DNA of 64,000 nucleotides from Tetradesmus obliquus (taxonomy: Eukaryota > Chlorophyta > Chlorophyceae > Sphaeropleales > Scenedesmaceae): contig CP126194.1 of assembly GCA_030272155.1 (NCBI GenBank), positions 6,439,501 to 6,503,500 of the forward strand, in the 5' to 3' direction. The number at the start of each line of letters is the position of its first letter. Within the stretch, counting starts at the first letter, position 1. The translations under genes and the position numbers were made by a program. Below are positions 1 to 64,000 of the stretch, one piece after another. A model generated the notes under the pieces. It searched no databases. It was not told where the DNA came from and saw nothing but the letters and a program-made list of their open reading frames with translations.

Positions 1-2577
1 AAATCCGAAGAATTTTTGCAGCACGCCACCACTCATCTCCTTAAACAGCACATGTTGTGTAACACTGTCATAACATCTTCCCGCACCTGTACAGCCAGAT
101 GCTGGAGCCACCGCACTCCACCAGCACGCCGCCGCTCACCTGCTCCAGCTCGCGGAGCAAATGTTACACAGACATGTCATAACAATGTCAGAAACCACCT
201 GTACAGCCAGATGCTGGAGCCCGCGCACCCAACCAGTACACCACCCGCTGATCTCCTCCAGCTCGCAGAGCAAATGTTACAAAGACATGTCATAAGAGTG
301 TCATAATGCACCTGTACAGCCATATGCTGGAGCCCGCGCAGTCCACCAGCACGCCGCCGCTCATCTCCTCCAGCTCCTTGAGCAGCAGGTTCATGCGTGG
401 CAGGTTCATCTTGCGGCTGCTGCGCTCGTCATGGATGGCCAGCTTGACCACCTCCTTGCCGCGCCAGGCCATTTGAATCTGCAGGTGCATTATAACAGTG
501 TTACATAACATGTGTTACAGTTGGTAGTGTTAGGGGGTTATCCTGCGGCTGCTGCGCTTGTCATGGATGGCCAGCTTGGCACCCTCCTTGCCGTGCCAGG
601 CCATCTGGATCTGCAGGTGCGATACAACAGTGTTACATAACATGTTAGGGGTGGCAATGTTCCATGTTCATCGTGCAGCTGCTGTGCTTGTCGTGGGTGG
701 CCAGCTTGGCACCCTCCTTGCCACGCCAGGCCTATTGGATCTGCAGGTGTGTTATAACAGTGTTAAATAACATGTTAAAGGTGGCAACACTCCATGTTCA
801 TCTTGCGGCTGCTGCACTCGTCGTGAATGGCCAGCTTGGCATCCTCCTTTCCACGCCACGCGTTCTGGATCCGCGGCTTTGTTGTACAACAATGATACGT
901 AGCTTACATAACAAGACCGACTGTAAGCTGGAGGCCAGCAACCACCAGGTGTGAGGGCCCACGCTGCTTTGTCACTGCAACCATTGAGACATCAGCGACT
1001 GCTTCATAGCTTGGTCCATACCTCAGCCCACGCCAGGCCCCTTGCTGCTGCACAACCCCAGACAATGCGTGCACACGCTGCATGTCACTGATGCTGGCTG
1101 CTGTAGCATGCACCCGCACCTGGTCGATGAGGGCAGGGGTGGCTCCCCTGCGGCCTATCTTAATGGGCGTCTTGATCGTCTTGTACTCAGCCTTCAGGCG
1201 CTCCCACTCCCCTGCCACAGCAGCAGCAGCAAGCACCGGACAGCAGCAGGCAGGCAGGCAGCATTGAAGCAAATACACATCAGCCCCCATTGTCATGTTC
1301 ATGCTTGATGATTTGGCAGCTGCCGCAGCCTCACAGTAAAGTCCTAGTCTGGTTCCTGACCAACGTCACACCCCAGCATTGCCGCACTGCACGCTGGCTA
1401 TTCCTGGGCTGCGTACCACACCTCCACACAGCTTCACACCAAACATCCCACGCACCCTCCCTGTGACGTTTCCAACCCCTTTTCAACCTCCGGCAGCGCC
1501 TCCAAGCGCAAACTCGCGAAAAGTCGCGCTTCACACCACACCCATCCACAGTGTCACACCATAGTTCACAGCCGACTTCACACTCCTTAGTTTGGACTTC
1601 CCACTGAACTTCCCACTCACCCTCCGGCAGCGCCTGTGCGCGCGAGAAGTCGCGCTTCACGCCAGCAGCAGCTTCAGCCAGCGCCTCCTTAGTGGGCTGG
1701 ATACTCTTCGCTGCTGCCTCCTGGATCTGCCGAGCAGCATTCGCAGCAATGCGTGCGGCCTCCTCCTCATCTTTCGCAGTAGGCAAAGCATCGGGGCTTT
1801 CTAGTGCCTTGCGCCGCACTGCCTTGAGGCTCTTGTTGCGGTCATAGATTCCGATGCGGGCGATCTTGCGCGCTGAGGCGCGCGCGCCGCGCTTCTCCTC
1901 CTGAGACGCCTTCTCGTCCCACTGGCGCGTCATGGCCTGCACAAGTGCGACGAAAGCGCAGCACGCGGGTGTGTCAGTGCGCAATGATTGGATGCAAAAG
2001 CTGCTGCAAGGCCAAGCACACGGATGTGTCGGTGCGCTTTGATTCACAATGTGGGCCGCTGCGAGGCCATAGAAGCCTTCACGGCCCCCACTGGCACGTC
2101 ATGGCCTGCAGAAACCCAGAGTAAAAAACAAGCCACAGGTGACGGGCTGCATGTGAGCTCTTCCTGCAACCACCGGCTGTGCACTCTTCCTGCAGGATGA
2201 TGTGTTCCCTGCCCTGACAGGAGGTGTTGTTGACATAGGAACTTCAAAAGTTACATGCATGCAGGCTATTGAAGCATCCAAGAGATCTCCGTAACACCGT
2301 TTGGTGACGTTAGGGTGGTACCCTTTCACTGCTAAGCAGTTGTGACAACAGGAACACCACTGCTGTCAGCAGCCACGTACACACCACTTAACCACCAACA
2401 GCCAATGCAACATACTGCCTAGCAATGGCAAGCATATGTGTGCTGCAACTGCTGCTACACCACGCCACCCCAGCCCGCCATGGTACATAACAACAATAAT
2501 AATTTTTTTTATAAATTTAACTGGCTGAAACAAATAACCCCACGCTATTACTGCCATCAACATACCCTTAACGAGCC

Positions 2578-2622
<45 letters not shown>

Positions 2623-3543
2623 CCTCACCTGGAAGATGACTTTGTCCTGCTTCGGCTTGGGCTTGGTGGGAATCCTCTCACTGCGCTCCTTGCGAAGCAG
2701 CCGCTTGCGCTCCTCCTCCTCACTCAACCTGGCCCTCTCTTCTGCTTCCCTCTCCCAGCGCCGCCTCACATTCTCATGTGAGGCCCTGCCATCTCTCGGC
2801 CACCTGTCGCCATCATCTGCTGCTGCTGCTGGCCGCTCCCCCCTGCTGCTGCGGTCTAGCCAAGGGCGGCGCTCAGATGCGGCGTCACTGTCGCTCCTGC
2901 TACTGCGGTCCTGCCAGGGCCGGCGCTCAGATGAGCCATTGCCGCTGTCGCCCCTGCTGCTGCGGTCCTGCCAGGGCCGGCGCTCAGCACCATCGCCATC
3001 ACCTCTGCTGCTGCGGTCGACCCAAGGGCGGCGCTCAGATGAGCCATCGCCGCTGTCGCCCCTGCTGCTGCGGTCTAGCCAGGGGAGCCGCTCAGATGAT
3101 GTGCTGTCCCTATCACCCCTGCTGTCGCGTTCTCGGTCCTGCCAGGGGCGCCGCTCTGCTGCACCATCACCATCACCCCTGCTGCTGCGTTCTCGGTCCT
3201 GCCAGGGCCGGCGCTCAGCAGCAGCAGCATCACCATCGCCCCTGCTGCGGTCCTGCCAGGGCCGCTGCTCAGCAGCAGCAGCAGCATCACCATCGCCCCT
3301 GCTGCCACGGTCCTGCCAGGGCCGCCGCTCGGATGCGCCAGCGCCGTCACCTCTGCTGCGGTCCTGCCACGGGCGCCGCTCGTCATCACCAAAGCGTGAC
3401 CGGCCACCCCTGCTGCTGCTGCTGCTGCTGCGTGGTCTGTCACGCCTTGACCCACCATCAGGATTATCGCCATCATTGTCATTGTCATAGCGCTGTCGCC
3501 GCTGCGGCTCTCGCCATGGCTGCTCTTCGCTGCTGCCGTTTTG

Positions 3544-3587
<44 letters not shown>

Positions 3588-7072: not shown

Positions 7073-7124
<52 letters not shown>

Positions 7125-7595: not shown

Positions 7596-7791
7596 GATAT
7601 GTGTGGCCACTGTTTGTGCGCAGGACACTGTCAGGGGCTAGTTAGTGTCAGGCACCTGCAGCCGTGCCAGCTGCAATGCGCCAAGTAATTGTGAGTTTCA
7701 GTCATCGTGCAGCTGCTTCCAGTTCTTAGTTGCCTCTGAGTAGCCTGCCTTATGGTCGACAGCAGCAGCATCACCGGTCACTGGTGACCGT

Positions 7792-18065: not shown

Positions 18066-21000
18066 CTAGTGCTGCTGGTGCTCCCTGTCGCTGCCGCAGC
18101 TGAGCTGGCTCATCTCATACAGCGCTGTGCCGCTGCCCCCCTCCTGCTGCATCTGCTCTTGCTGCCCGCTGCCTCCACTGAACCCAGAAGGCATCAGGTC
18201 TGCCATCATTGAGGGAGTGAGCTCATGGCCCAACTCCCCGAGCTCAGGGTGGCTGGCTGTGCCGGCCGCGCAGAGCGGCGCTGCTGCTGCTGCCATCTGC
18301 TGCGCCTGCTGCTGCTTGAGGGCATCCAGCTGGCCCGCCATGTCCTCCAGCTGCGCCACGATGGCATCGAATGACGGCCTGCGGAAGAAAATCGGTCAGA
18401 ATATAACAAGGTAAGATTCAATATGCTTACAGGACTGGCAGCCGCTACTGTTGAAAACACTTCAAAGGACAGCATCACGGCACAAGCAGCAAGGGCAGCT
18501 GGGCATTACGTTCAAACAGCGAGGGGTCCTTTCCACTGCAACTCCATTACGTTTCTCAGCTGTCGGCCGTGTCCTGCGCCCAGCACATCTCCGTCAACAA
18601 GGGCAGGTAAGGGATCTGCCCAACAGCAAGCAGCGCAACGAATTCCTTTTACATTTGACAACTTCTGCTACAAGACCCATTCGATTCTCACCTGTCGGCC
18701 GGGTCCTGCGCCCAGCACATCTCCGTCAGCGCCTGCACCGGCTCGCAGCAGCCGCCAGGCCACGCGGGCCGCCAGCCCTGCTGCGCCACCTTGTGCGCCA
18801 GCATGCCCACGGGCGTGCCGCTGTAGGGGCGGCGGCCCGTGGCCAGCTCCCACAGCAAGATGCCGTAGGCGTACACGTCGCTGGCGCGGCTGGCGTGGCC
18901 GTGCAGCAGCAGCTCGGGCGCCATGTGCGTGAGCGTGCCCTGTTGGCAGTAGCAGACAGAGACGGCAGCAAACAAAAGTGAGGTACGTTTGATTGGGTGT
19001 TAAGATCTGAAGCTCGGCTGGCGTGGCCGTGCAGTAGCAGCCCGGGCGCCATGTGCGTGAGCGTGCTCTGTTGGCAGCAGCAGACAGAGACGGCAGCAAA
19101 CAAAAGTGAGGTATGTGTTACTGGGTGTTAAGATCTGCAGCCCGGCTGGCGTGGCCGTGCAGCAGCAGCCCGGGCGCCATGTGCGTGAGCGTGCCCTGTT
19201 GACAGCAGCAGACAGAGACGGCAGCAAACAAAAGTAAGGTATGTGTTACTGGGTGTTAAGATCTGCAGCCCGGCTGGCGTGGCCGTGCAGCAGCAGCCCG
19301 GGCGCCATGTGCGTGAGCGTGCCCTGTTGACAGCAGCAGACAGAGACGGCAGCAAACAAAAGTAAGGTATGTTTTATTGGGTGTTAAGATCTGAAGCTCG
19401 GCTGGTGTGGCGGTGCAGCAGCAGCCCGGGCGCCATGTGTGTGAGCGTGCCCTGTTGAAGCCGCAATAAGAGGCGGCAGCAGCTCGGGCGCCATGTGTGT
19501 GAGTGTGCCCTGCAGAGGGGACAGACACACATTCATTCATTCGTTAAGCACGGGCCGAGCACGTATGCACGGGTCTTAACAGCCAAGGAATTCTGCGGTG
19601 CATTGCTGCTGGCCGCAGACTGCAGTGTGCAGCTGCTGCTGCCATTGCTGCATCACACAACACAAACAATCCCGTGCACAACTACACAGCGCAGGCCCAT
19701 GAGTCACGCTGGCGGCTCATGCTACCAACTCATAACTGTGCCTCACCATGTTGCATCTGCGACACAGCCAGAACCGCGCACACGCAAAAATCACAAACAA
19801 CGAAGCCTGTGCACAGAGACACAGTGCAGCCCCGTGAGTCATGCTGGCGACTCATCTGTCGACTCATGCCACAGCCAGCACAAACACCTCGCTCACCATG
19901 TGCATCTGCGACACATGCGTGTCTGCAGGCCCCAGGGTCAGGCTCAGCCCAAAGTCCGCCACCTTGGCCATCAGCCCCAGGCCCAGCGCCACCAGCTGCC
20001 CCGTGCGCTGCACCTGCTACAGCCCACATGCTCATGCAGATCTAAGCAGTCTGGTTCCATCACGCACGGTAGCGAGTCATGCTGACAACCCGTGTTTGGC
20101 GCCGAGTAACGCAAACGATCCATTGTAAACCACTCACCATGTGCATCTGCGACACATGCGTGTCTGCAGGCCCCAAGGTTAGGCTCAGCCCAAAGTCCGC
20201 CACCTTGGCCATCAGCCCCAGCCCCAGCCCCACCAGCTGCCCCGTGCGCCTGCCATGCCCGCCGGCAGCAGCAGCAGCGGCAGCAGCCTGCTCCGGCCAC
20301 ACCGGCAGCCGCGGCGCAGTGCGCTTCAGCAGCACCTGTGAGGCAGCAGGCAAGCATGTGACAGGTGCGGCAAATGGTGATATATGTTGAATCCACCATC
20401 CAGACGTGCAGATGTAAGCAGTGAGGCCTTTACTGCATGTCAGCTGGCAGCTGTGCGTGAATGCGACCGGCCAGACCGCAGCGGCTGCGCTTTGCTTCAA
20501 AGCCTGCACACGTGCTGCAAAAGCTGGCTGTAGCACCTCAGCAGACTACGCATGGGCTCACGTTGCTGAATTCGAGGTCTCCATGCAGCTGGCTGCAGTT
20601 TGCTGCAGCACCTGGCGCATGCGCTGCAACAAGCTGGCCCCTCACAACAAGCCACCTCACACTGCTGGCCTTAGAGGTCACCGTGCAGCAGGTGCTGCCA
20701 CAGACTCAAACCGCAGATCTGGCGCACTTAAAGATCTACATCAAAAGAACTAAACTCACGTTGCTGGCCATGAGGTCGCCGTGCAGCAGGTGCTGCCACA
20801 AACTCGCCCCGCAGATCTACCGCACTGAATGATCTACAACACAAGAACTAGACTCACGTTGCTGGCCTTAAGGTCCCCGTGCAGCAGGTGCTCGCTGTGC
20901 AGGTGGATCATGGCGCAGGCCACGTCGTGCGCCAGGAACAGCACACACTCCAGCGCAGGCAGGCCCGTGGTGCGGTCGATGAGCAGCTTATGGTCCAGCG

Positions 21001-24000
21001 CCGTGCGCAGCGAGCCCTGCAGCAGCAGCAGCAGCAGCAGCATGTGGCAGCACACAATCAATGTAGTGGATGCTGCCACTTGACTCTACAAGCGCTTGTG
21101 CTACGACACCTGGCCTTACACATCTCCGTGGCCCCACCCAGCGCACTTTGTACAATATACAGGCATTTAAGTAGAATCAGCAAAATCAGCATGCTGTTCC
21201 GCGCCACCCACCGCATCGCAGAACTCCATCACTAGCCGCAGCTCCCAGCCCACAAGCACAGGCTTGTGCTCAGCATCGCCAGCATCGCTGCTGCTGCTGC
21301 TGCCGCCGCCGTCAGCCCGCGCATGCTGCCTGCTGCTCGCCGTGCTATCCGCATGCACCGACCGCACTGCCGACGCGCTGGCAGCAGCAGCAGCAGCAGC
21401 AGGCAGCGCGGCAGCAGCAGCAGCTGCCACCTCGGGCGGCAGCTTTGACAGGTCGCCCCTGCCCTCATGCATGAGAGCTGTAAGCGACTGGCTGCTGTCA
21501 TTGCAGCTGGTGGCAGAATGCCTGCTGCTTGCGTGCCGCTGCGAGCCGCTGCGAGGGCTGTTCACTGACACATTACTAACATTGGACAACCGCGGCGGCC
21601 GCTGCCGCTGCTGCTGGTCGCTCTTTGGGCTGGCACCATCTGCAGCAGCTGCACCTGCAGCTGCCGCTGGCGCTTGCCCGCCTTGCACAATGTGAAGCGC
21701 GAGCCGCTGCTGCTGCTGCAGCCACTCAATCTGCGCTTGCTGCTGCTCAGGCTGCTGCTGCTGCTGTTGTTGCTGCGGCTGCTGCTGGTTGGCTGGGTTG
21801 CCGAGACCTTGGCTTTTGCTGTTGCCGCTGGTGATGCCGTCCTGACCACTCATCAGCGGCTGCAACACATACGTGTACACCTGCACACAACAAGCAGCGG
21901 CAGCAGCAGCAGCAGCACTAGTCAGAAAAGAGCATCCTGCAGCACAACAGAGTCTAGCAACAGTCGCCGCTGGCGACTTCCACTGGCGGCTGCCTGGCAA
22001 GTGCAGAAAGGACAGCTTGCATGACACACATTGCCACCAAGCACGCTAGCGCGCGCTGCGCAGCTGCAGCACAAGCGACACCAACCACCAGCAAGTACGC
22101 AACAGCACAACAAGAACACCCTGCAGACCGCACCTGCACGATGGTTGGGTGGCTCATGACGGTGCTGACCACAGTTTCAATGACAGCCAAGCCAAATCCA
22201 CACATGAGGCAGCAATCTACATTCTGGCAGCTTCATTGCTAGCATGAGTTAGTTCAAAAACCGCACCTGCACGATGTTTGGGTGGCTCATGGTGGTGCTA
22301 ACGACTGTCTCCATGACTGCCATCTTCTCTCGGTGGCTGCTCACACGCGCCACGCCAGCCCACGGCGACACGTCACTGTTGCCAGCCGTCGCTGGCAGCT
22401 GCAGCACCTTCACTGCAACACAGCGCCGCCGCCACAGAGCTTTATATACTTGCCCAAATGTGCCCTGGCCCACTAGCTGCAGCAGCTTCAACTCGCCTAG
22501 CGTATTGCTGCTTGGGTGTGACACACGAGCCATGCTGCCAGAGTTGGAGACCGGCCGTCCTTGCTGCTGCTGCTGCTGCTGGGCAGCCGCCGCTGCTGCA
22601 TCGTCTGCGTCCGCAGCATCACCTGCTGCTGCTGCTGCATCCTGAGCAGGCAAGCTCTTTTGGCTGCTGACGTCAGACGCAGCACCTACTGCGCCAATCG
22701 AGCCTGATGCTCGCCCATCCTGCGGCTGCTGCTGCTGCTGCTGCTGCTGCTGCAGGAAGTGCGCATGCGGGCTCTCCCTGGCTAGCCCCAGCGGCGACGG
22801 CCTGCTCAGCGGGCCTGCACCACCCGCTGTGCTGGCGCCGCTGCTTTGCCCCGACAGTGCGTTGACGCTGCTGACCTGTAGCCGCCGCGACAGCACGTCC
22901 TGCGACATAGTCGTGATCGCGCTGTGCAGCCGCTGCAGCGCCGCATCACTTGCAGCATTTGCAACAGCAGCCGGCGGCGGCTGCCGCAGGCCCTGCTGCT
23001 GCTGCTGCCACGAGCCTACACCGGAATCTCCATCCTCACTACCACCCTCATGCCTGCTGCGGCGGTTCCCTAGCAGCTGGCTGCGCGCCAGCTCAGCTGT
23101 CAGCAGCGCGCGGTCCTGCAAGGGATAGCTGTCGCTGCTGTCATGCACGGGCTCCTGCAGAGACAACTCCAGCCGCGCCGCGCTGCCGCTGCCGCCCTGC
23201 TCGCGCTCAGCACTTCCGCTGGATCGCTGGCTCGGCGCCTGGTCCCCATGCATGTTAGGGCCAAGTCCAGCCTTGCCCTGCTCTGCTGCTGCCATCGCTG
23301 CTGCTGCCAGCCGCGCTTCTGCCGCGCGCTTGCGCCACAGCACCACAGCTAGGCATGCCAAGACGCTGGCCACAACTGCAGTGACGAGGCAGACTGCCAG
23401 CACCACTACCACGGCGTCTGACATGCGGCCAGAATGCTGCGCTGTGGCTGTGTTCCAAAAGCCACGAGGTCCGCTGCTGTCTTGGCCCCAGCCCGCCTCA
23501 AGGCGCAGCCACAAGCTGCTGCCTTGCAGGCCCGGTCCCCTGCAGGACAATAATAACGCCAGTGTAGGGTGTGTCAGCAACACAGCAAGTGGTGTGCAGT
23601 GCAGGGCGATGGGAGATGGCCACATGGCATGGCAGCACATACACGCCGCTGCAGCCAGGCGAACAAACAACAACACAAGATGCGCATATGACAATTGCGC
23701 GGCTCTGGCAATGCACATCCTGCGCCTGCTGCTGATCCCCAGACTGCGCCTCTGCTCCGACCTGCCACATCCAACACTTCTACGGCCCTCTCTGTGCTTT
23801 ACTTGCTGCTGCCAACATCAGCTGCTGCATGCACCCTCACTGCTGCTGTGCTTGCTGTCGCCAAGCCACCTCTGCTGAGCCACCTCTGTCTTTGGTTTTT
23901 AACTGTACATATGGTTGTGTAATTAATTGTTTTTCGGACTTTTCTTCAAAGGGTTACATTTCTATAAAAATATCTTATTCTGTCGACTGTAATGAAATCA

Positions 24001-37072: not shown

Positions 37073-40000
37073 ATGCTGCCTGTACTGTGGTGGGGCCTGC
37101 AATTCACTGCCCTGCAGGTTAGGTCATCCCCTCAGGTGGACTTAAACCTAGCCAGCCCAACAGGCCTTCTCGGGCCAGTGTCAGCTGATGCTGCACTGAG
37201 CAAACTAGCAGCAGCGCAGCCAGCCGTGCTGCGCCACGCTGACAGCAGCAGCGGGCTGCATGAGCACGAACAGCAGCAGCACGGCCAACATGTTGCTGCA
37301 GTCAAACACGTTGCTGGGCAGCCCTTTGAGAAGCGGTCGCTGGTGCTGTCGCCGGCAGAGAGATATGCTGAGATTGTGCATCATGGTGAGCTGTGCTGGA
37401 TGGTGGCGTATCCGCCGGCGCCAATCATATGACAGAGCACACTACGTCAGTCTCACAACAGAAAAGCGCGCAGCCTGTGTCCTACTCAGGATGTGAAGCG
37501 CGCCTGGTGACCAGTTGCAGCCTACCCAGGGACACATCAATGCTGGTTTATGTTTCAGATGTTGCCGCTGTCAGCATTGATATTATTATGAGCACGTCCA
37601 AAGGTCGCCTTGTGCCTGACAGGCCTGCTGCTGCTGCTGCTGCTGCCGTTCTGGCCGGCTGGCAGGTGCGGTCAAAGCTACTTTCCCCTGGCACAAGCTG
37701 GCGCTGCTGGCCATTGCAGCCGGCTGCTACTGCGGCTTCGGTTTCACGCTGTGCCTAATCGTGGGAGGCAATGCACCAAAGTGAGCATGGTCTGCTGCCA
37801 TACCTGGCAGCGTTGTTTGCATGCACCAATGATGCAGATGCCGCAGCTTTGATGCAGACGTATGCACGCGGGGTACTTCACCCAAACGTGTAGTAATCGT
37901 TGCGTCCGTGTAGGATGCAGTCTGTCGGCGCCAGAGCCAGCTTCAGTCCTGCCTGCATGTTGTAAAATGCAAACTCTCCCTTTACAACAGGTGCTGTGTC
38001 ATGGCAGTGTCAGGCTGGTGCTCAGCTGCCTTCACAGGGCAAGCAAGCCATGATAGAGATTGAAACAAAAACCTACCAGGCCTTCACATGATGCTCAGAC
38101 GCGTTTTGAACTTGCACCCAGCCCCCTGGTGCTGCTTGCTGCTTTGACCTCCCGTGTTTAAACGTGAACATGGTGCTGGCTGCTTGTGTGTATCCCAGGC
38201 AATGGCTGGAGGACTCTCCTGGGCTGTTCAGCCTGCTGTTTGGGGCGGTGGGTGAGTGGCCGGAGCAGCAGCAGCAGCAGCAGCAGCCTGCCAGGCCATT
38301 GAAACGCCCGCTGTGCTGTTATTGTTGGCATGCATTCAGGCGCCTGAGGTCTCAGACAAAGGGTGTGCAGCTTGCGCCAGCCTGAGCAAGATATGCTGCT
38401 CGCTCAACGGGCCTGCAGAGTGCACCTCTTGAGGCAATTATATGATTCATACAGCTCCCATCAGTGGTTGCACAGTCACTCCGCTTCCATGCATAGGGAG
38501 CAGCAGCTGCACAAGGAAAGCTTGCACATTTCAGCTGAAATGTGCTTGTGGCACGATGACAATGCTGCCGCAGGCTTCCCCTTCTCCTTCACCATCATCC
38601 TGGTGTGCGGCGCCGAGCTGTGAGTGACGCACTGCAGCAGCTGCAGCAGTCGATGCGCACCCACATGGTTGTGGTTTGTTTACAGATACATGCACAGCTG
38701 CTGTAGCTGCTATGAGAGTGTGCCCGGTATCAGGCAGGACACACCACCACCTGTGCACATTTGATGCAACTCTGTTGCTGCCTTCACAGCCAGTGCTGCA
38801 CTCCCTGGTGCCAGTCATTTAAGTTTACAGAGCAGCATGCACACTCGGTGTGCACCAATAATTGGCTGTTGTCACACTCCAGAAACTCAACTTCAGAGCA
38901 AACAGACTCAATGCAGTATATGTTCCTGCGCTGCCCCTGCAGCTACACCAGCATGTGTGCCTACATGATGGCTGCCTGGTGGCTTGCTGTTGACATGCCC
39001 AAGCAGCTTCAATCTAGTAGCTGAACTCTGCATGAACTAAACAGCATGCTCCTTGTGCTGCTGCTGCTGCTGCAGCTACACCAGCATGTGCGCTTACATG
39101 ATGGCTGCCTGGTGGGAGCGCAAGGTGACCATGCGCACCTGCCTGCGCATGTGGGCGCTGTCCTGGCTGTGGAACTTTGTGGGCTGTGCAATCTTCGTGG
39201 GCCTTATGTACGCCAGCGGGCTGTACCACCATAAGGACTGGTACATCAAGCTGCTGGCAGTAAAGAAGGTGTCGTACAGCTGGGGGGCAACGCTGGTGCG
39301 AGGCATCTTTGCCAACTGGTGAGCTGCAAATCTAGCACAATTTCAAGATAGATGTAGATGGCTGTCAAACACCCCGCTGGCCATGGGCAGCAGCCCTGTA
39401 GATCAAAGCAAGGTGGATGCAATGTGAACAGTCTCAGCCACTACATGTCAGCAACTCTGTGCGCCCTCCTAGGCAGGCGCTTGAGAGGGACAGGTCTGGC
39501 AGTGAAGAAGGTGTCGTACAGCCGGGGCCCACACTGGTGCGCAACATCTTTGGAAACTGGTGAGCGGCAGCTGTTGCCAATAACTCATGTGTATGTCCTC
39601 AAATGCAGATGTGTTGCCGGCTGTCAGACAGCTTGTTGAGCAGCAGCCCTGTGCAATGACCCGAGGTAGCTGCAAACTGAACATCTCACAGCCGCCGACT
39701 TGTGAATTTGCAGTCTGTGAGGAGAGTGAGCAGCACCTGTGTAACATGAGCGCCCCCGCTGCTGACGCGTGCTGCAGGCTGGTGTGTGTCGCCACCTGGC
39801 AGGCCAATGCTGCACAAGACCTGACAGGCAAAGCTGTCGCCATATGGTGAGCGCAAATGCAACTGCATTGGTATGTCCTGTACTGCGGCAGCATGGGTAC
39901 TGTGCCATCGGTTGTGTGGAAAAGAGGCAGGTATGCTAGTCAATAGCAGGGACAGTTGGCATGGGCCATACTAGCAGCTATGTAGACAAACTCATTGCAA

Positions 40001-41045
40001 TGCTGGGCTCCTCCTGGCTGTTCTGCTGCATCCACTTGTTGGATGCAGGCCAGCGGTCTCCGTCTGCCACACAGTGTGCCCAATATCATGCGCAAGCTGT
40101 TTGTCCACAGTTGCTCTGCCCACTCTGAGGAACGTCATTTTCAGACATGGTGCAGACCGGCACAGAGCGGGTCAGACATGGTTCAGACTGCCTTGTTCAG
40201 GCGCCTTGTATAAACCCTGCAAGGCAGACTGCCCCAACTCCGCCTTTGCCATGCTGGGCTTCAAGCACTGCATCGCACACCAGTTCTTGTTTGAAGTGAA
40301 GAACCCTTGCCTTGCTGCTCTGTGTCGTTTGCTGTGTTTGAATTCCTGCAATGCAGGCTGCCCATCTCCGGCTTTGCCATGCTGGGCTTCGAGCACTGCA
40401 TTGCCACCAATTGTTGGTCTAAGCCAAGGACCCTTGCCCTGCTGCTCTGCGTTATTTGCTGCGGATGATCCCTGCAATGCAGGCTGCCAATCCCTGCCTT
40501 GGCCATGCTGGGGCCGTGACATCATGCACTGGATGTTTCACCTGACAGCTGCTCTGCTGCCTCTGGCTTGCAATGCAGGCTGCCCATCTCCACCTTTGCC
40601 ATGCTGGGCTTTGAGCATTGCATTGCCACCAATTGTTGGTCTAAGCCAAGAACCCTTGCCCTGCTGCTCTGTGTCGTTTTCTGTGTCTGAATCCCTGCAA
40701 TGCAGGCTGCCCATATCAGCCTTTGCCATGCTGGGCTTCGAGCATTGCATTGCCAACCAGTTCCTGATCCCCATGGGCATTGCGCTAGGAGCCCCAGTCA
40801 GCGCACGGCAGTTTGTGGTATCAAACCTCATCCCAGCAACCATCGGCAACTGGATCGGCGGCGCAATCTGCATGGCCACGGTGTATGCATGGGTGTATGG
40901 CAGCCCACCGCAGCAGCTGGCGGCCTGGTGGGAGCAGCGGAGGCACAGGCACGGGCTGCAGAGCGATGCTGTGGCGGTGGTGACGGAGCCAAACAACAGG
41001 GGGCAAGGGAGGGAAGCCGTAAAGGGAGGAGTGAGGGAGCTTTGA
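37073..41045 (+). CDS. Formate/nitrite transporter (FNT/NAR1 family)
   Basis: Seven exons: 37073-37385, 37666-37780, 38199-38251, 38574-38619, 39076-39318, 39778-39846, 40706-41045, in phase throughout (392 aa). After an N-terminal extension, FNT features follow: SPAERYAEIV, KLALLAIAAGCYCGFGFTL, SPGLFSLLFGAVGFPFSF, ILVCGAEL, NWLVCVATW, then FAMLGFEHCIANQFLIPMG and NLIPATIGNWIGGA. FNT proteins form pentameric channels for formate, nitrite or related anions; algal NAR1 members move nitrite or bicarbonate at plastid or plasma membranes. Substrate and membrane cannot be told from sequence. The family Pro-Gly and GFEH positions are intact. Several exons are tiny (46, 53 and 69 nt). The start is tentative; an upstream exon could add a transit peptide. 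Confidence 0.9.
38935..38988 (+). repeat. Copy of transporter exon 5 5' end plus acceptor
   Basis: Repeats CAG then YTSMCAYMMAAWW, with its boundary at 38943, 133 bp before the true exon start (39076). Confidence 0.9.
39495..39562 (+). repeat. Copy of transporter exon 5 3' end plus donor
   Basis: Repeats the AVKKVSYS to FxNW end with its GTGAGC donor at 39559, 241 bp from the true donor (39318). A one-base deletion shifts its frame. Confidence 0.88.
40225..40640 (+). repeat. Four tandem copies of transporter exon 7 5' end plus acceptor
   Basis: Copies of CAATGCAG followed by the LPISAFAMLGFEHCIA coding start have boundaries at 40228, 40357, 40483 and 40579, ahead of the true 40706. Steps are 129, 126, 96 and 127 bp. 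Confidence 0.95.
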
Positions 41046-54226: not shown

Positions 54227-57200
54227 ATGGGCGTGCAGGATGCCAGGCAGCAGCTGCAGCAGCAGAAGCAGAAGCTTGCAGGAATGCTGGATCCAATGGA
54301 TGTGGAGACATCACTGCCTCTGGATGCAGATGGTGTGGCAGAGCTGCTGAGTGGCGACCCCTCGCTGCTCACAGCACCCATAAAAACAGTGCAGGATAAG
54401 TTCAAGCTGCTGCCTGCTTTCCTGAAGATCCGGGGGCTTGTGAAGCAGCACATCGACAGCTTCAACTACCTGATAAACCATGACATCAAGAAGATAGTGA
54501 AGGCGAACGAGCGCGTGACGTGTGACACAGACCCCAACTTTTACCTCAAGTGAGCAGCAGGGGAAGCGTGCATGCAGGGGTTGAGGGCTGAGCGATAGTG
54601 TGCTGGGTTTAGGTTGCATGGGCATGGGTTGTAGAGATATGTGACAGCAGCAGGAGGCAGCAACTTGCAGGAGGTGGAGGTCAGGTTGGGCTAAGGAAGC
54701 TGAGGCAGCTTGGGGACTGTGCTTGGTTGATCACCATGGCAGCTGGCGGGGCGCCTACATGAACCTGGGGCAGTGCACAACAAGCATGACTTGCGGGAGA
54801 CATGAGAAAAAACGCAATATGCTAGCGCTGGCAGCACTGCAAGCACTCTTAGCAGCAGCAGTAGCGGCTGCAGCAGCAGCGCCATGCCACCATGATTTAG
54901 TATGCCTTCATGCCGGCTGGCAGCAGCAGGCGGCATAAGGCGCAGCAGCTGGGCAACAGCTTGCCGTCTGCCGCCCGATACGCGCAACAGCTGTGCATGT
55001 TGAAGATTGGTGGGTGCTGCCTGCCACAATACACGCATGCAGGCGCAGCACAAGCCTTCGCGCTGTCAGGCATTCAGCTAGGGTATCACACACCACACCA
55101 ATTCTACGCAAGCGCAACACCCTTTGCCTTTTTATCTTTATATAAATTGAACCAAATGAAACAACATCAGCACACTTCTCGACTGCGCAGGTACACCAAC
55201 ATCCACATCGGGCCGCCCTGCCTGGAGGAGGAGTACCGCCAGGAGGAGATCACCCCGCAGCAGTGCAGGCTGAGAGACATCACCTACGCGGGTGCGTGAC
55301 AGTGTGCCTGCACGTCGCGTACGGGGGTTGCTGTGTGTGTTTGCAGCGTGCAGCAGTGCAGGCTCAGAGACATCACCTACGCGGGTGCGTAAGAGTGTGT
55401 CTGCACAATGCGTACTGGTGGTTGTGATTATGCAGTGTGCAGCAGTGTAGGCTGGGGGGCAGCACGTTCGGGGGTGCAGGTGGCAGCTGCGATATGATGC
55501 GGAGTGCTTACGTATGCAGTGTATGTATTGTGTGCAGCGCTGGCGCGACCTGGCATCTGCGCAGCGTATGATTGTGGTGTTTCTTGCAATGTTTCGCAAC
55601 TGCTGCTGCTGCAGCAGCTGCTGCAGTGGCTGTGTGGCTCCATGATGCTGCTGCTTTGCTACTTTGCTGCTTTGTGTCCCTGTCAGCAACCGAATATGCC
55701 GCTCCTGTACGCGTATCTCTGCACTTCCCTGTCATTGCAGCGCCCATCTATGTGGACATTGAGTACACGCGGGGCCGCGAGATCGTCACGCGCAAGGGGC
55801 CCGGCCAGGCGGTGCGCATCGGGCGCATGCCGCTCATGCTGCGCTGCGACAGGTGGGTGACTGGCAGGAACGGCTTGCAGTACAGGCTTGCAGGAAAGGC
55901 TTGCAAGACAGGCTTGCGGGAAAGGCTTGCAGGACAGGACAGCTGCTGTGCATGTTAGGGATCTGGCGCATGCCGCGCATGCTGCGCTGCGACAGGTGGG
56001 GGTGCCTGCAGGACAGACGTGCAGTGTTGGCCGATGTGCTGTCAGCATCGTTTGCTCCGTAATGTTACCGATCAAGCCACAGCGCTGCGCTAAAGTTTTT
56101 GAAGGGGTGGCTGAGGCGTACTGACAGCAGAAGAGGTTTAAGCGCGCGCGGCTTGCACTCGCACTCTTGCCTTTCGCCTGGGGAAGGCCTGCTTGTGTCT
56201 CTCGTGACGTGTTACAAATTGTAACATTGCGCTGCTGCCAGGTGCCTGCTGCACAACAAGAGCGAGCCTGAGCTGTACAAGCTGGGGGAGTGCCCGCTGG
56301 ACCCTGGCGGCTACTTCATCGTGCGGGTGAGCAGCTTGACAAGACCATGCTTGGATGGAAGGCTGCGTCACCGTGACGCACGGCGTGCAATCTGCACAAT
56401 TCTGCCTTGGTGGCACTGCTTGAGTTTACACAACATGCTCTGTTACCCAACATGGGTTGTAACATGTTTGGAATGGTGCCGCAGGGCACGGAGAAGGTCA
56501 TCCTGATCCAGGAGCAGCTGAGCAAGAACCGCATCATCATCGACACCGACCAGCATGGCGAGGTGGTGGCCAGCGTGACCAGCTCCACGCACGAGCGCAA
56601 GTCCAAGACCAACATCGCAGCCAAGAACGGCCGAATCTACCTGAAGCACAACGCCTTCGCGTGAGTGTTGTGGTCATGTTTAGGGTGTATGCGGGCTGGG
56701 TGTTGCGGCATGTCAGCTGGTCAGGCGCATGACTGTATGTTGACCGCATCACATGCGCGTGTGTGTGTGGTGGTGGTGGTGGTGGTGGTGGGGGTTGCAT
56801 GGCGGCTAATGAAGCAGCTGCAGGGGTGTTTGATCAGGGGTGCAAGTGCATGAGCGTGCTGCACGCTGTTGCGTGAGGCATGGGCGGGCTTGCAGGATTG
56901 CTGTGCGGTGCTGCGCACAGCCATAGTGCGCTGCAATTTTTTGCACCCTCCTACCATGCTCAATTTGCGGCTGGCTGAGCTAGTGCCTGGGGCCGGTGTC
57001 ACCTTGGATAGTGTGCACACAGTGCTCACCATCGTATTGTTGAGAACTCCCGGCTGCTGCATCAACGGCATGGCAAACGCATATTTCCTTACTCTTGCCT
57101 CAAATCACTTATCACTATTTCACTACTCATGCTGTGCCCGCAGCGACGACCTGAACATCATCGCCGTGCTCAAGGCCATGGGTGCTGAGAGTGACCAGGA

Positions 57201-59062
57201 GGTGGTGGACCTCATCGGGCCGGACGAGGCGCTGGCCAGCCTGCTCATGCCCAGCCTGCAGGTGCGAACATGGTACACTTTTCTTAATCACTGCCCGGCA
57301 CATATGTATATGTATGTTTCATTTTTAGTTGCGTTCATGGTGGGGCCTGACGAGGCATTGGCCAGCCTGCTCATGCTCAGCCTGCAGGTGAGCAAATGGG
57401 AGAAGAGCAGCTGTGTGCCATTCAAAACTTTGAATATGATCAGAAAATGGTTGTGCGAGACATGCAGATCCTCAACCGAAGCGTGTGCCGTAATGAATGC
57501 AGCTTGCAGGCGCGCATAGAGCGCAGCGCAGTTTGCCAGCTGCGGTGCCTCGGCGACATAACGTGTTTTGTTGCTTTGTGCCTGCAGGAGTGCAAGGCGC
57601 TGGGCGTGTTCAGCCAGCTGCAGGCGCTGGAGTACCTGGGGGGCAAGCTCACGCAGCGTGGCAACAGGGCCTTCGAGCGGCGGCGCAAGAGCAAGGTGGG
57701 TCGGAAAACGCCTGTAGGGTCTGCTGGTTTGTCGTACATGTTAATGTTGTACGCTGTTTTGAGTCACACGCCCATGCTGATGATTTTTTGCATGTATGCC
57801 GTGCATCGCCGCAGGTTAACAAGGCGCGCAGTCTGCTGGCGCACGTGGTGCTGTGTTGCGCCTTGCGCCCCGAACGCTGACATTGCATGCACACACGCTG
57901 TTTCCACATGAAGGTTGACGAGGCGCGTGGCGTGCTGGCGCACGTGGTGCTGCGTCATGTGCACATGCTGCTGAGACTGTATGCGTGCTGTTGTCATCAT
58001 TCTGTGCAGGTGGACGAGGCGCGCGACGTGCTGGCGCACGTGGTGCTGTGCCGCACACCTGACGCAAGCTTTCTGCTGTCTGCATTCTTGCTGCGCGCTC
58101 TGCAGCTCTGCATGCAGGTTGACCAGGCGCGCGACGTGCTGGCGCACGCGGTGCTGTGCCACGCATCTGTTATCCTTGACTGTAATACCTGCCTGCTGTG
58201 TTCTGAATGCATCCTCTGCTGCAGGTTGACGAGGCGCGCGACGTGCTGGCCCACGTGGTGCTATGCCACGTGCCGGTGGTGCGCTACAACTTTGCTGCCA
58301 AGGTGCTGTATGCGGCGGTGATGGTGCGGCGGCTGATGTACGCGCAGCTGGACTCAAGCTTCATCGATGACAGGGACTACTATGGCAACAAGCGCCTGGA
58401 GCTCGCAGGTGAGAATTGTCATTTTGTGTGTTACGTTGTTTTATCTTTGTTGTTAGATCTTCATGTTGCATTGGTACTGCCATGAATTGCAGCTGGACCC
58501 AGCTTGTTTGATGGCAGGGATCACTACGACAACAAGCACCTGAAGCTGGCTGGTGCGGCGTGTGTTATTTGTCATTTTGTTATGTTTGTACTCATCCCTT
58601 GTTGTGCTCCGTTGCACAGGTCTGCATGTGTGGTGTGTGCTTGGAGTACTGCGTAGTGCTGGGTGCGGTTCTGTTGATTCCCGATGACAGCAGTCGTTGG
58701 CATTGCTGCGTGCCAGCGCCGAATGCTGTTCCTCCTGCTGTAATGTGATGCACTGCGCTGCAGGATATCGATGCTGTTAGCGTAATCATGCGATGTTGGG
58801 CAGCGGATAACAAAGTTGATGAAGGCATGAACGTGTTACGTATTGTGTCGACTGTCAGCCTGTGTTGCTGCGCACTCCTTGTGCTGCAGGCGGGCTGATG
58901 TCGCTGCTGTTTGAGGACCTGTTCAAGCGGCTGAACGGCGAGCTCAAGCGCCAGGCGGACGCCAGCCTGGCCAAGGCCAACCGCGCCAGCCAGTTCGACA
59001 TCGCCAAGTGCATACGGTGAGGCCGCTGCCGCTGCTGCTGCTGCTGCCGGTGCTGCTGCCGG

Positions 59063-59110
<48 letters not shown>

Positions 59111-62100
59111 AACAAAGCAGTAGTGAACTGTGTGCAGCTTCAAGCGCTTGGCATTGCGCAACGTGAAACACACACGATAATAATGCGCCAAGTAGCAATA
59201 CGGCCTAGCATTGTCAATGAGACTAGATTCATTACTGCTCAGTTTCACACGGTAGCTGAAGTACTGGTACTGCTTGCTTTGAATGCCTCTGCTTTCTCCC
59301 GCAGCGCTGACACCATCACGTATGGGCTTGAGAGCGCCATCAGCAGCGGCAACTGGAACATCAAGCGCTTCCGCATGGACAGGAAGGGCGTCACACAGGT
59401 GCGCACAGAGTCACGGGGTTTTGAAATTGTGATGCTAAGGTTCAGGGTTCTCAAGTTGGGATTTTTTGGTTCAGTTTCTGGTGACTGGAACATCAAGGGC
59501 TTCTGCGTGGATAGGCACGGTGTCACACAGGTGAGAAGGTTTTGTCATGCCGTGGGTTTGTAAACCGTGATGTGTTGCCTACAGTGTATTGTGGCATTTA
59601 CACCCTTGATCCAGGATGAACAGAAAGGCCCGCCGCGCAGGCATGGAAGACGCAGCACATGGGAGAGGTTGTGAGTGCATCAAAACCCGACCTGCTGGCA
59701 ATGGTCTGTGTACTTGCTGCATTGCTCAGGCATGCCGAAAACTCTGTTGCTGACACGTTTGCTGCTTTCTGCTGCTTCTGCTTCTCCTGCTGCTGCTGCT
59801 GCTGCTGCTGCCTTATAGGTGCTGAGCCGGCTGTCCTTCATTGCTGCGCTGGGCATGATGACGCGCATGAGCAGCCAGTTTGAGAAGACGCGCAAGGTGC
59901 GGGGCCGTGCCTGGCACACTGCGTCATTCCACAGAGCAGTACATGCGCGCCCTGTTCTGTCAGCACATGCTGAGTTGGAACCACTTCAAAGCAACCCTAC
60001 GCGCAAGCGCAGCTGATGTTCGACGTCGCTGTACACAGCTGCTCACGCCTAATGGATGCCTGGTTGGGATGGTGCAACGATTGTGTTCTGAAAATCACGT
60101 TATGCATTGACTGCATGTGCGCAGGTGTCTGGCCCCCGTGCGCTGCACCCCAGCCAGTGGGGCATGGTGTGCCCCGCAGACACGCCGGAGGGCGAGAGCT
60201 GCGGCCTGGTCAAGAACCTGGCGCTCATGACGCACGTGACCACGGGTGCGGCACATGACAGTTACCTAGTACATGCGCAGTTTGATGTGTAATGTCACAG
60301 CAACAATAACATAGCAGGCATCCTGGCAAACATACTTGCCTTGCAGGACAGGTCCTCCACCCCTGCATGGCGCTGCGCTACACGGTAGCAGGACGAACCC
60401 TTAACCAACACTGCATGGCTGAACCCGTTCATTTGCAGATGAGGAGGAGGGCCCCGTGGCGCGGCTGGCGTTCCTGCTCGGGGTGGAGCCTGTGGGCCTG
60501 CTGAGCGGCGCCGAGCTGCACTCCAAGTCGGCTGCGCTGGTCTTCCTCAACGGCAGCATACTGGGGCTGCACCGGCGGCCCAAGAAGTTTGTGCGCGCCA
60601 TGCGGTGAGAAGCGGCTGGTTGTTTGTATGGCAGTACGTGTAAGACACCAACGGCAGCTTCCTCAACGGCAGCATCTTGGGCCTGCACCGGCGGCCCAAG
60701 AAGTTTGTGCGCGCGATGCGGTGAGAAACGGCTGGTTGTTTGTATGGCAGTGCGTTTACAGATATCAACAGCGCAGGTGTTCCTCAATGGCAGCATCCTG
60801 GGGCTTCATAGGCGGCCCAAGATGTTTGTGCGCGCGATGCGGTGAGAAACGGCTGGTTGTTTGTATGGCAGTGCGTTTACAGATATCAACAGCGCAGGTG
60901 TTCCTCAATGGCAGCATCCTGGGGCTTCATAGGCGGCCCAAGATGTTTGTGCGCGCGATGCGGGGAGAAACGGCTGGTTGTTTGTATGGCAGTGCGTTTA
61001 CAGATATCAACAGCGCAGGTGTTCCTCAATGGCAGCATCCTGGGGCTTCATAGGCGGCCCAAGAAGTTTGTGCGCGCGATGCGGTGAGGGGGAGTGTGGT
61101 ATTGTAAGAGTGTGTATGCGAGAGTGTATGTGGATTGAGGGGTTGAGTGAGGACGGCTGAGCTGCTGTCGTTGTTTCAAATGTGCCGCGAGGTTTGCCTC
61201 GAGGCCGATGCATGACCCATGCCTTGCACTCTGGCATATTCTACAAACCCATCTCCTGCTTCTGCTGTTGTGTAACCTTGGACATTCAAAACCCATTCAA
61301 ACCCTGCAGGGACCTGCAGCGCGCCGGCCACCTGGGCGCGTTTGTGCACCTGCACCTGGCGGGCGACACCTGCCACATCAGCTGTGGCTGATGACCGTCG
61401 TGGCGCTTCATGCAAACTCTGCAGGGCAAACCCTTGCGCTCCTGCTCCTGCTGTTGTGTGTAACCTTGGACGTTGTGTTTCATGCAAACTCTGCGGGGAC
61501 CTGCGGCGCGCCGGGCACATGGGCGCCTTCGTGCACCTGCACCTCGCAGGCAACGCCTGCCACAGCAGCTGCGACTGCTGACGTCGTGCAGTGTGACTGT
61601 TCTAACAGGTTGTGCCTGCCGTAGCTGCTGCATGCGTGATCCACACCCTTCCACAACTGTCCAAATCCTCAACCTTCGCTCCTGCTCCTGCTGTTGTGTG
61701 TAACCTTGGACGTTGTGTTTCATGCAAACCCTGCAGGGACCTGCGGCGTGCTGGGCACCTGGGCGCATTCGTGCACCTGCACCTGGCGGGCGACGCCTGC
61801 CACATCAGCTGCGACTGCTGACATCACTCAGTGTGGATGATGTTCGCAAGTTCAACCCTGCGGCTGCTGCATGTGTGATCCACACCCTTCCACCTGTCCA
61901 CTTCCTCAAGGCCAGCTGCTGCTCCTGCTGTTGCGCAACCCTGCGGTTTGAAACCCATTCAAACCCTGCAGGGACCTGCGGCGCGTGGGGCACATGGGCG
62001 CCTTCGTGCACCTGCACCTGGCGGGTGACGCCTGCCACATCAGCTGCGACGGCGGGCGCGTGTGCCGCCCGCTGATCATCTGCGACCGCGGCGTGCCGCG

Positions 62101-64000
62101 CGTGACCAACGAGCACATCGGCAAGCTGAAGGCTGGCGAGTGGGGTTTTGAGGACTTCCTGAAGCGCGGTGAGTTGTGCTGCAGGGTTTTGTGTGCAGGG
62201 GGCTACGAGGTTTTGTGCTGCGCTTGCTGTGTGACAAACGCGCAAAGCTCAAGGCTGGCGGCTGGGGCTCTTAGGACTTCCTGAAGCGCGGTGCGGGTTT
62301 TGTGGCTGCGGTTAGGGTTCCGTGTGGTTTGGGAGTGAGGTGGTTTTGTGCCGTGCTTGCCGTGTGACCAACGAGCACATCGGCAAGCTCAAGGCGGGCG
62401 TGTGGGGTTTTGAGGACTTCCTGAAGCGCGGTGAGTTGTGCTGCAGGGTTTTGTGTGCGGGGGGTTACGAGGTTTTGTGCTGCGCTTGCTGTGTGACAAA
62501 CGCGCAAAGCTCAAGGCGGGCGAGTGGGGTTTTGAGGACTTCCGGTGAGTTGCGCTGCAGGGTTCTGTGTGGTTGGCAAGGAGGTGGCTTGGCCTTGCTC
62601 AAGGCAGGGAGCGCGGCTTTGAAGACCGATCAAAGCACGGTCAGGGTTTGTCCGTTTAAGCCGGTGATCCAGCACCTGGACATGAAGCACAAAGGCTTGT
62701 GGCACTGCGCCAGGCCACTGCCATTCTTGTCCATTGTTTCACCGTCACTCGTCCCTGTCACCCAAATTGCACGCCTGATTGAGTACCTGGACGTGAACGA
62801 GGAGAGTGTGTTGCTCGTCGCCATGTACGCGTTGCAGTGCCATTTCATTGCCAAACTCATTGCTTGATCACTCAATAATCTGCTGCGCAGGCCTGACAAA
62901 GTACCTTGACGTGCAGGCGGCCGCCAGGCCACCCGCGTCTTTCAATCGCTACTCTCCTAACCGCTACTCATGAACCTGCTACTTGTCTTTCTATCCCACG
63001 CACAGGCCTGATTGAGTACCTGGACGTGAACGAGAAGAGTGTGGCGCTCATCGCCATGTACGAGAGCCAGTGCCATTTCATTGCCAAACCCATTGCTTGA
63101 TCACTCAACAATCTGCTGCGCAGGCCTGACAAGGTACCCGGGTGCCCGCAGGCGGCCAGGCCACCCGCGTCTTTCAATCGCTACTCATTTAGCCGCTAGT
63201 CATGAACCTGCTACTTGTCTTTTCATCCCGCGCGCAGGGCTCATTGAGTACCTGGACGTCAACGAGGAGAGCGTGGCGCTCATCGCCATGTACGAGAGCC
63301 AGTGCCACGCGGGTATCAGCCACCTGGAGATCGAGCCCTTCACCATCATGGGCGTGGTGTCCGGGCTCATCCCCTTCCCGCACCACAACCAGTCGCCGCG
63401 CAACACATACCAGGTGGGTGCGCAACATACACCAAGTGCTGATTGTTTGGGTGCGAGTGTGCGAGCCAGCTGGTGCATAGGCTGAAGTGCGCTTTGGCTG
63501 ACCTTTGCACCATCGTGGGCGTGGTTTTTAAGCTCAGCCCCTGTACACCGCACAACCAGTCGCCGCGCAATGATCACCGATTGAGTGCGGGTCGTGCCAA
63601 CCGCCAGTGCGCCAGTGACTTTGAATGGACTTGTGCAGCTGCACCTCGTCCGAACGGATCTGCGTCTGTCCGTATCTGCTTCTGCACACCGCAAATATTT
63701 CGCATCAATTGCATCAAGCCGGCACCCGTCCCGCTTCTGTCTGCTGCGCCTCCGCTGCATGTGCTGTTGCGCCGCAATCACCCACAGTGCGCCATGGGCA
63801 AGCAGGCCATGGGCAACGTGGCCTTCAACCAGGGCAGCAGGCTGGACACGCTGCTGTACCTGCTGGTGTACCCGCAGCGCCCGCTGCTGACCACGCGCAC
63901 CATCGAGCTGGTGGGCTTCGACAGGCTGGGCGCTGGGCAGAACGCGACGGTGGCTGTCATGAGCTTCACGGGTGCGTCATGTTACATGTGTGTTATGTGA
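54227..64000 (+). CDS. RPC2: RNA polymerase III second-largest subunit RPC2, 3'-truncated by window
   Basis: Exons: 54227-54549, 55191-55291, 55741-55852, 56242-56326, 56485-56660, 57144-57261, 57588-57695, 58225-58408, 58890-59016, 59305-59398, 59819-59896, 60125-60245, 60439-60604, 61972-62168, 63238-63413, 63788-63971, in phase throughout (783 codons). Landmarks: [127 protein letters not shown] and [10 protein letters not shown]. The SSTHE/K pattern, [10 protein letters not shown] and spacing fit Pol III rather than Pol I or II. It forms part of the active-site cleft of the enzyme that makes tRNA and 5S rRNA. About 70% of a normal RPC2 is visible. At least nine exons have duplicated ends in adjacent introns. 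Confidence 0.95.
55340..55470 (+). repeat. Copies of RPC2 exon 2 3' end plus donor
   Basis: [11 protein letters not shown] with a GTGCGT donor recurs at 55384, 93 bp after the true donor (55291). A more decayed copy lies near 55440-55470. Confidence 0.88.
55865..55998 (+). repeat. GGCTTGCAG-type short tandem repeats plus copy of RPC2 exon 3 end
   Basis: Several copies of a 14-16 bp GGCTTGCAGGAAA/GACA motif are followed by a copy of RMPxMLRCDR and its donor (55995), 143 bp after the true donor at 55852. Confidence 0.82.
57335..57390 (+). repeat. Copy of RPC2 exon 6 3' end plus donor
   Basis: [15 protein letters not shown] then GTGAGC at 57387, 126 bp after the true donor (57261). Confidence 0.92.
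57812..58160 (+). repeat. Four tandem copies of RPC2 exon 8 5' end plus acceptor
   Basis: Copies of [15 protein letters not shown] preceded by AG have boundaries at 57815, 57914, 58010 and 58118 ahead of the true 58225. Steps are 99, 96, 108 and 107 bp. Confidence 0.95.
58480..58556 (+). repeat. Degenerate copy of RPC2 exon 8 3' end
   Basis: Resembles the exon stretch ending [15 protein letters not shown] with several substitutions and a short deletion; its donor is altered (GGTGCGG). Confidence 0.75.
59063..59110 (+). repeat. (CTG)16-type tract in RPC2 intron 9
   Basis: A pure TGC/CTG run, preceded by interrupted CTG/CCGG repeats, just after the exon 9 donor (59016). Confidence 0.95.
59465..59535 (+). 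repeat. Copy of RPC2 exon 10 3' end plus donor
   Basis: [18 protein letters not shown] then GTGAGA at 59530, 132 bp after the true donor (59398). Confidence 0.92.
60654..61084 (+). repeat. 121-bp tandem array of RPC2 exon 13 3' end (four copies)
   Basis: After the true donor (60604), the exon end ([21 protein letters not shown]) is repeated with ends at 60720, 60841, 60962 and 61083. The unit at 60721-60841 is identical to 60842-60962 by eye; 60963-61083 differs at a few sites. One copy lost its GT (GGGGAG). Each of the last three is also preceded by GCGCAG|G, so each looks like a 65-nt cassette exon. Confidence 0.95.
61305..61830 (+). repeat. Three upstream copies of RPC2 exon 14 5' part plus acceptor
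   Basis: [25 protein letters not shown] variants begin near 61309, 61497 and 61735 ahead of the true 61972. Each starts after CCTGCAG or TCTGCGG and ends in TGA soon after the shared part. Steps of about 187-240 bp are larger than elsewhere. Confidence 0.92.
62240..62550 (+). repeat. Three downstream copies of RPC2 exon 14 3' end plus donor
   Basis: The exon end ([18 protein letters not shown]) recurs with ends at about 62290, 62430 and 62544 after the true donor at 62168. Steps are 122, 140 and 114 bp. One copy contains a stop, one a deletion at the end. Confidence 0.9.
62765..63140 (+). repeat. Copies of RPC2 exon 15 5' end plus acceptor
   Basis: [18 protein letters not shown] copies start near 62772 and 63006, with shorter fragments near 62890 and 63122, ahead of the true exon at 63238. 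Both long copies end in the same HFIAKxIA stop context, so a composite unit of about 233 bp was duplicated. Confidence 0.9.
63508..63575 (+). repeat. Degenerate copy of RPC2 exon 15 3' end
   Basis: Carries a decayed TIMGVV and HNQSPRN stretch about 155 bp after the true donor (63413); the donor itself is not conserved. Confidence 0.8.

Follow-up and report, generated by a model that had tools for sequence, protein, structure and literature searches.

Tandem arrays at splice junctions in Tetradesmus obliquus: copied exon edges, diverging intron parts and their possible origin

Why should the edge of an exon, together with its splice site, be repeated in tandem within the adjacent intron? The question is raised by a stretch of 64,000 nucleotides from Tetradesmus obliquus (C4:6439501-6503500, hereafter the window), part of a genome of 104.66 Mb in 17 contigs. 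The accessible part of the source on this organism gives a GC content of 57% and 7.8 introns per gene (PMC5966456); the window itself has 52-62% GC in 2-kb steps, and the nearest named relative of its FNT protein comes from Raphidocelis subcapitata (57% identity over 81%).

Arrays in the window and in the wider sample

The original prediction, made from the letters of the window, put such copies at about twenty exon ends in six unrelated genes and named slippage or repair as a conceivable origin. The placement holds: 24 junction arrays are present and they fall in all six genes. Pfam recognizes a CRM gene (PF01985), a kinase gene (PF07714), a RING finger gene (the predicted RNFT, whose RNFT-like sequence our gene finder fused with the kinase gene), a Methyltransf_16 gene (PF10294, the predicted METTL21) and an FNT gene (PF01226); RPC2 matches human RPC2 (7a6h_B, E 1.4e-211). 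The arrays are the following.

83..384, minus strand: donor array of a CRM exon; lag ~112, junction ~347
401..883, minus strand: acceptor array of the CRM exon that also bears 83..384; lag ~130, junction ~479
1918..2113, minus strand: acceptor array, predicted CRM gene; lag ~169
18550..18728, minus strand: donor array, kinase gene; lag ~132, copy with CT for GT
18900..19512, minus strand: acceptor array, kinase gene; lag 128, six mapped edges, outer and inner intron parts unlike
19892..20212, minus strand: donor array, kinase gene; lag ~241
20674..20892, minus strand: donor array, kinase gene; lag 98, copy includes intron part
22127..22322, minus strand: donor array, kinase gene; lag 133
30855..31049, minus strand: acceptor array, RING-finger (RNFT-like) gene; lag ~125
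35124..35777, plus strand: donor array, METTL21-like gene; six mapped edges at a spacing of ~96-126, the outermost with a different intron part
35929..36133, plus strand: acceptor array, METTL21-like gene; lag 171
38945..39115, plus strand: acceptor array, FNT gene; lag 133
39254..39569, plus strand: donor array, FNT gene; lag ~241
40233..40766, plus strand: acceptor array, FNT gene; lag from 96, five mapped edges
55269..55418, plus strand: donor array, RPC2; lag 93
57217..57399, plus strand: donor array, RPC2; lag 126, 69 bp between copies matching the genome here only
57808..58273, plus strand: acceptor array, RPC2; spacing ~96-108, five mapped edges
58357..58555, plus strand: donor array, RPC2; lag 144, the second exon-end copy a gap against human RPC2 and thus extra sequence
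59352..59533, plus strand: donor array, RPC2; lag 132
60534..61088, plus strand: donor array, RPC2; five mapped edges at a spacing of 116-121, the outermost with an intron part unlike those of the four inner edges
61289..62053, plus strand: acceptor array, RPC2; smallest lag 187, spacing up to ~240, four mapped edges, intron parts all alike
62099..62571, plus strand: donor array, RPC2; three mapped edges, smallest lag 114, the outermost with an intron part like that of the real edge
62769..63307, plus strand: acceptor array, RPC2; three mapped edges at lag 232, the outermost with a different intron part
63341..63570, plus strand: donor array, RPC2; lag 167

A twenty-fifth entry (5641-6092) was removed from this count, being a 45-bp minisatellite counted at twice its unit. 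Its units, about ten at 98% identity, each carry CAGGTGAA; in the gene finder's reading they encode a KDSRQG protein repeat in CRM. The predicted CRM gene also contains an ordinary protein repeat (2837-3381, in-frame 57/60-bp units with a SERRPWxDRSSRGD motif). Elsewhere in the window, a TCAT tetranucleotide is repeated some 30 times at 34376-34494, and ARAGORN calls a tRNA-Ser(GCT), possibly falsely, at 58186-58279, where it overlaps an acceptor array of RPC2 and the beginning of the corresponding exon.

The main sample comprises 264 kb on six chromosomes, namely the window and five 40-kb blocks (C1, C2, C3, C5, C6). To this were added 33 stretches around kinesin genes located by PF00225, of which 135 matches were grouped by eye into 34 places, one of them (C5:1532807) within a 40-kb block, and a lone match (C1:8053200) that was left out. 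Exon calls come from a home-made gene finder that had kinesin exons as its seed, and for most arrays the junctions are ab initio calls. Six kinesin loci bear arrays, and there most of the matched edges lie no more than about 20 nt from their homology-based positions; the errors at these loci are two introns read through (L031 and the L041 array), an exon partly missed in L046 and another mostly missed in L054. More generally, the program reads through some introns, takes some copies for small exons and places some junctions a few bases off (e.g. C3b 38485). Because BLAST missed most planted units shorter than 70 bp, a minimum unit length derived from it was withdrawn and a diagonal scan adopted (lag 8-800, score of at least 40), which yields 356 segments in real sequence against none between unrelated blocks. 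Units of up to 12 bp mask 0-14% of bases in the 55 stretches; CAG/CTG triplet runs are abundant in the window (1-64000) and in the blocks.

Placement and geometry

Sixty-two arrays have a lag of 70-180 bp: 52 are coding on exactly one side, five intronic, three intergenic, one mixed and one exonic. Once the exonic one is dropped, junction arrays make up 52/61 against an expected 26.5% (p 1e-21), the expectation being that of tolerated duplications at random, in a comparison of array flanks with single-unit placement. Whole array spans agree with this single-unit test, as 72/88 are coding on one side only where random placement predicts 25. A comparison with random placement, similar to the shuffled-position check proposed with the original prediction but made on a sample of the genome, thus finds arrays at junctions more often than chance allows, and their pinning to existing junctions also goes beyond a simple model in which duplication occurs anywhere and harmful copies are purged. 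The bias is absent in 19 short-unit arrays (lag 8-70: 6 NN, 5 II, 1 IN, 5 CI, 2 CC). Among 22 kinesin arrays, ten overlap an exon match to PF00225 and, by our own reading, all ten straddle one of its ends; the other 12 lie where PF00225 has no match and hence no exon is defined by homology. Young full-unit arrays of the window, blocks and kinesin loci number 14 in a list that misses arrays broken by masked triplet runs (e.g. C1b 19320): ten are at junctions, one being the 45-bp minisatellite, three are intronic in one predicted gene, one is mixed and none is intergenic.

The layout of the repeated unit is fixed, about 45 bp of exon with 71-80 bp of intron, donors and acceptors being mirror images. 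Among arrays with a lag below 180, the exon part spans 29-66 bp in donors (5-95% range, n=34) and 26-69 bp in acceptors (n=29), the intron part 54-111 bp and 57-110 bp, respectively; the median lag is 122 in donors and 119 in acceptors. Phase is not uniform (KS 7e-10 for donors, 1.6e-7 for acceptors), whereas a planted uniform-phase control, recovered in 146 of 150 cases, was still uniform. The exon part is almost independent of exon length, with a median of 41 in exons of 90-130 bp and 51 in those of 200-400 bp. Matches within 1.5 kb are direct in 287 cases and inverted in two. Any mechanism has to account for this mirror-image layout and for the scarcity of arrays between genes.

Fate of the copies and competing accounts

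The two parts of the unit do not share the same fate. In identity profiles of 142 copies, picked by their exon side only, donor copies keep an identity of about 0.9 from the exon edge to +5 (0.77 at +4), then fall to 0.63, 0.60 and 0.51 from +6 onwards, and acceptor copies lose identity upstream of GCAG; comparison of mismatched genes indicates that the identity of the core is in part mere consensus. Ten of 89 junction arrays have no copy mappable by its exon side and were left out of pair tests. In the nearest pairs of the remaining 79, intron sides are related in 38 and unrelated in 41, where they score no better than the null. Related pairs have an identity of about 0.95 over exon and core and about 0.67 in the intron, and median lags are alike in the two classes (128 and 125), as expected if all arrays began as full units. 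In 31 multi-copy arrays, compared over at most ten listed pairs per array, inner intron parts resemble one another (median 24 of 50) and mostly differ from the outermost one (median 9, against a mismatched mean of 7.8), with an exon identity of 0.88 for inner and outermost copies alike. Exceptions, in which the intron part of the outermost copy is similar to that of an inner copy, number at least six (C1b 19320, C1b 38081, C5b 11804, window 61289, window 62099 and L043 1190, the true outermost copy of the last being hidden by the lag limit). Between two copies that are both non-coding, identity is 0.908 in the exon part and 0.753 in the intron part, the exon being higher in 16 of 19 arrays. 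The p values of the inner-outermost and copy-copy comparisons are rough because sequences within one array are kin. Palindrome-like strings (TGTTATAACA, TAACATGTTA) were spotted by eye in the intron parts of several arrays (window 84-871; 22025 and 24301 of the C3b block, L010-L013).

Copies run from young to decayed, the range from identical to badly decayed that had been announced. Simple tandem duplication with parts of equal age is disfavoured, since exon edge and core stay near 0.9 where introns diverge, copy-copy pairs included. So is the insertion of exon edges into the middle of an intron: the 21 outermost acceptor copies whose introns are unrelated have a pyrimidine tract of 0.631, against 0.641 at the real edges of the arrays and 0.462 at other intronic GCAG, and therefore seem to derive from true intron ends.

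Among copies of canonical sites, GT is found in 69/81 at donors and AG in 47/54 at acceptors, in line with the prediction that copies carry splice dinucleotides; these are retained at about the same rate as the other bases of the copy. Changes private to copies distribute over codon positions as 32:23:44 (outermost 13:9:14, inner 19:14:30), against 2:2:25 in the real exon, and by our own reckoning neutral copies would give about 34:27:38 with GC sites mutating three times faster. Strong coding constraint on copies is not supported by this spread. Their synonymous share, 45/96 against 34% expected under a milder mutation weighting, leaves room for slight constraint, and nearest pairs of real edge and copy have an excess at third positions (12:15:46 and 37:19:91). 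On these sequence comparisons copies look near neutral and the real exon constrained. Real exons have about twice the synonymous changes expected from the rate of copies (again our own reckoning), which conversion by selection-filtered copies and a diverged source allele would each be able to produce.

Location bias, geometry, direct orientation, the split fate of exon and intron and the far weaker constraint on copies than on the real exon are firm observations from which an explanation has to be built. The best account seems to us, tentatively and with somewhat less than even confidence, to be junction-centred tandem duplication tolerated at the inner site and followed by concerted evolution of exon edges. 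A recurrent process would create direct tandem duplications of about 90-165 bp across an exon-intron junction (some 45 of exon, 71-80 of intron). The splice site adjoining the exon body would be used and the farther copy ignored, as exon definition would have it, and duplications would be tolerated because the innermost site is the one spliced. Unequal exchange or gene conversion would then homogenize the exon part and the core, with the real exon, itself held by selection, as the anchor. Meanwhile the intron part would drift, so that old arrays come to have alike exon edges and unlike introns. Births themselves may favour junctions, to judge from the 14 young arrays.

Several observations sit uneasily with junction-centred duplication. 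Conversion alone would not readily set the edge of similarity at the splice core, as the core of a copy is not selected; yet copies from other genes match the core nearly as far (extent below 8 nt in 208/230 donors and 148/165 acceptors), so that much of the sharpness of this edge may be consensus. The doubled synonymous change of real exons is a further difficulty, and the third-position excess of nearest pairs exceeds what would be expected from constraint on the real exon alone. The young arrays form a small set, with a minisatellite and three intron-only arrays of one gene among them; the outermost intron resembles an inner one in the six or more arrays named above; and most junctions are ab initio calls.

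The sharp edge is what copying linked to splice sites would produce directly, whether RNA-templated or by template switching at spliceosome-bound sites: edge and core would be copied as such, with flanks unrelated from the start. Similarity between the real edge and the outermost copy indeed ends less than 8 nt into the intron in 24/46 donors and 19/33 acceptors, 14 of the 36 nearest pairs with exon identity of at least 93% have intron sides no better than mismatched ones, and the geometry is fixed. But consensus gives an equally short extent in copies of other genes, the pyrimidine tract kept in outermost acceptor copies means that these were not dropped into mid-intron, some arrays (C1b 19320) copied the whole unit, intron included, and a directional RNA process is ill-suited to mirror geometry. 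Nor do the spacers and the unit that we tested have another source: a genome search that skipped simple repeats and very common words found no second locus for three intron spacers and one array unit. This speaks against a mobile element as spacer, although of 16 spacers compared with the sample four had short, weak matches (27-41 bp) elsewhere; the other 12 had no match outside their own array. On balance we regard this kind of copying as unlikely. A bolder general proposition, that a process undescribed in the literature searched and tied to splicing or to exon-positioned chromatin copies a junction footprint of about 120 bp into the adjacent intron, edges seeding arrays genome-wide and co-evolving as introns turn over, is conceivable but rather doubtful.

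It had also been suggested that copies could serve as back-up or decoy splice sites. Selection for such a role, or a regulatory one, would explain why exon edge and core outlast the intron, even between two non-coding copies, why GT and AG are so often present and why the synonymous share is raised. The suggestion finds little in its favour in the pattern of change, which is spread over codon positions unlike that of the real exon, and preservation of the core does not exceed that of the remaining copy sequence; the number of copies varies, and 39/62 genes have no array. We consider a selected role improbable. No better placed, and already disfavoured by the location test, is duplication everywhere with purging of what harms exons. 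A duplication straddling a junction might be tolerable while the inner site works, and a working acceptor could need at least some 50 bp of intron part. Under that regime 32% of arrays should be intergenic and 41% intron-only, against the three and five found among 61; no young array is intergenic (0/14), and the geometry is not uniform. Unequal recombination with a diverged allele or a hybrid partner, the exons matching and the introns not, would fit the differences between the real exon and all copies, almost all at third positions (2:2:25), but 25 changes in 366 third positions (about 7%) should leave introns alignable, when 41/79 score no better than the null; we deem it very improbable. 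Finally, an artefact of assembly or gene prediction is hardly credible, despite labels from a home-made predictor that reads through introns and calls copies small exons, since copies that have diverged and differ in their intron parts are not what misassembly looks like, exons are located independently by homology to Pfam domains and to RPC2, and the scan control was empty (356 vs 0).

Known repeats and spread over genes

Minisatellites and intronic VNTRs are likewise tandem direct repeats of local origin and variable copy number, and the arrays share with them a unit of more than a few bases that is repeated directly, head to tail. They differ in having units of about 120 bp with fixed junction geometry and a location that depends on gene structure (52/61 at junctions), when short-unit arrays of the same sample are unbiased. 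In the birth of introns from AGGT, tandem duplication of an exon bearing this motif leaves exon on both sides and a new intron of one unit. Here too tandem duplication involves splice-site sequence, but the repeat sits at one edge of an existing intron. Tandem exon duplication copies a whole exon with both splice sites. It shares with the present arrays local direct copying of exon sequence, whereas here one exon edge is copied. The expectation that no long exon would be copied entire stands but for six of 367 predicted exons (at least 60 bp) that lie inside a copied segment; all six are within listed arrays and may thus be copies called as exons.

Introners, described in the part of the source accessible to us as sequence families present in many introns (PMC9860276), resemble these arrays as a recurrent, genome-scale change of introns. 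As had been anticipated, they and AGGT intron birth do not fit, exon being on both sides in only 2/88 arrays and the four stretches tested being single-locus. Closer in appearance are the direct repeats of 4-30 bp near splice sites that, in the accessible part of their report, pair the 5' and 3' borders of one intron (Rogers and Bendich, 2025; PMC11782384); by comparison with that account, here a single border is repeated on its own side of the intron together with some 45 bp of exon, and the array spans (coding on one side only in 72/88, median lag 122) are not those of paired borders. A literature search, outside which most subscription papers and bioRxiv preprints remained, found no equivalent arrays.

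To say that arrays occupy most intron-rich genes was too strong: they occur in 23/62 genes with at least six junctions and in 6/33 kinesin loci. Across the sampled genes, kinesin loci included, 79 arrays lie on 993 predicted junctions, so that sequence turnover is tied to about 8% of them. The spread over genes is uneven beyond chance (P 0.0005); when only the 40 genes of the blocks and the window are considered, dispersion is 77 with 38 degrees of freedom. The spread has a weak link with intron length (rho 0.28, p 0.03), and none was found in the 62 genes with codon bias, GC3 or intron GC. Junction arrays could explain intron growth in intron-rich algae, and they provide naturally duplicated splice sites with which to study how the spliceosome chooses one of several near-identical sites. 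They can also mislead gene predictors, as happened with ours: at L041 404-1295 a kinesin acceptor array was called as one open exon (259-1391) across all copies, from which the predictor would yield a falsely repeated protein.
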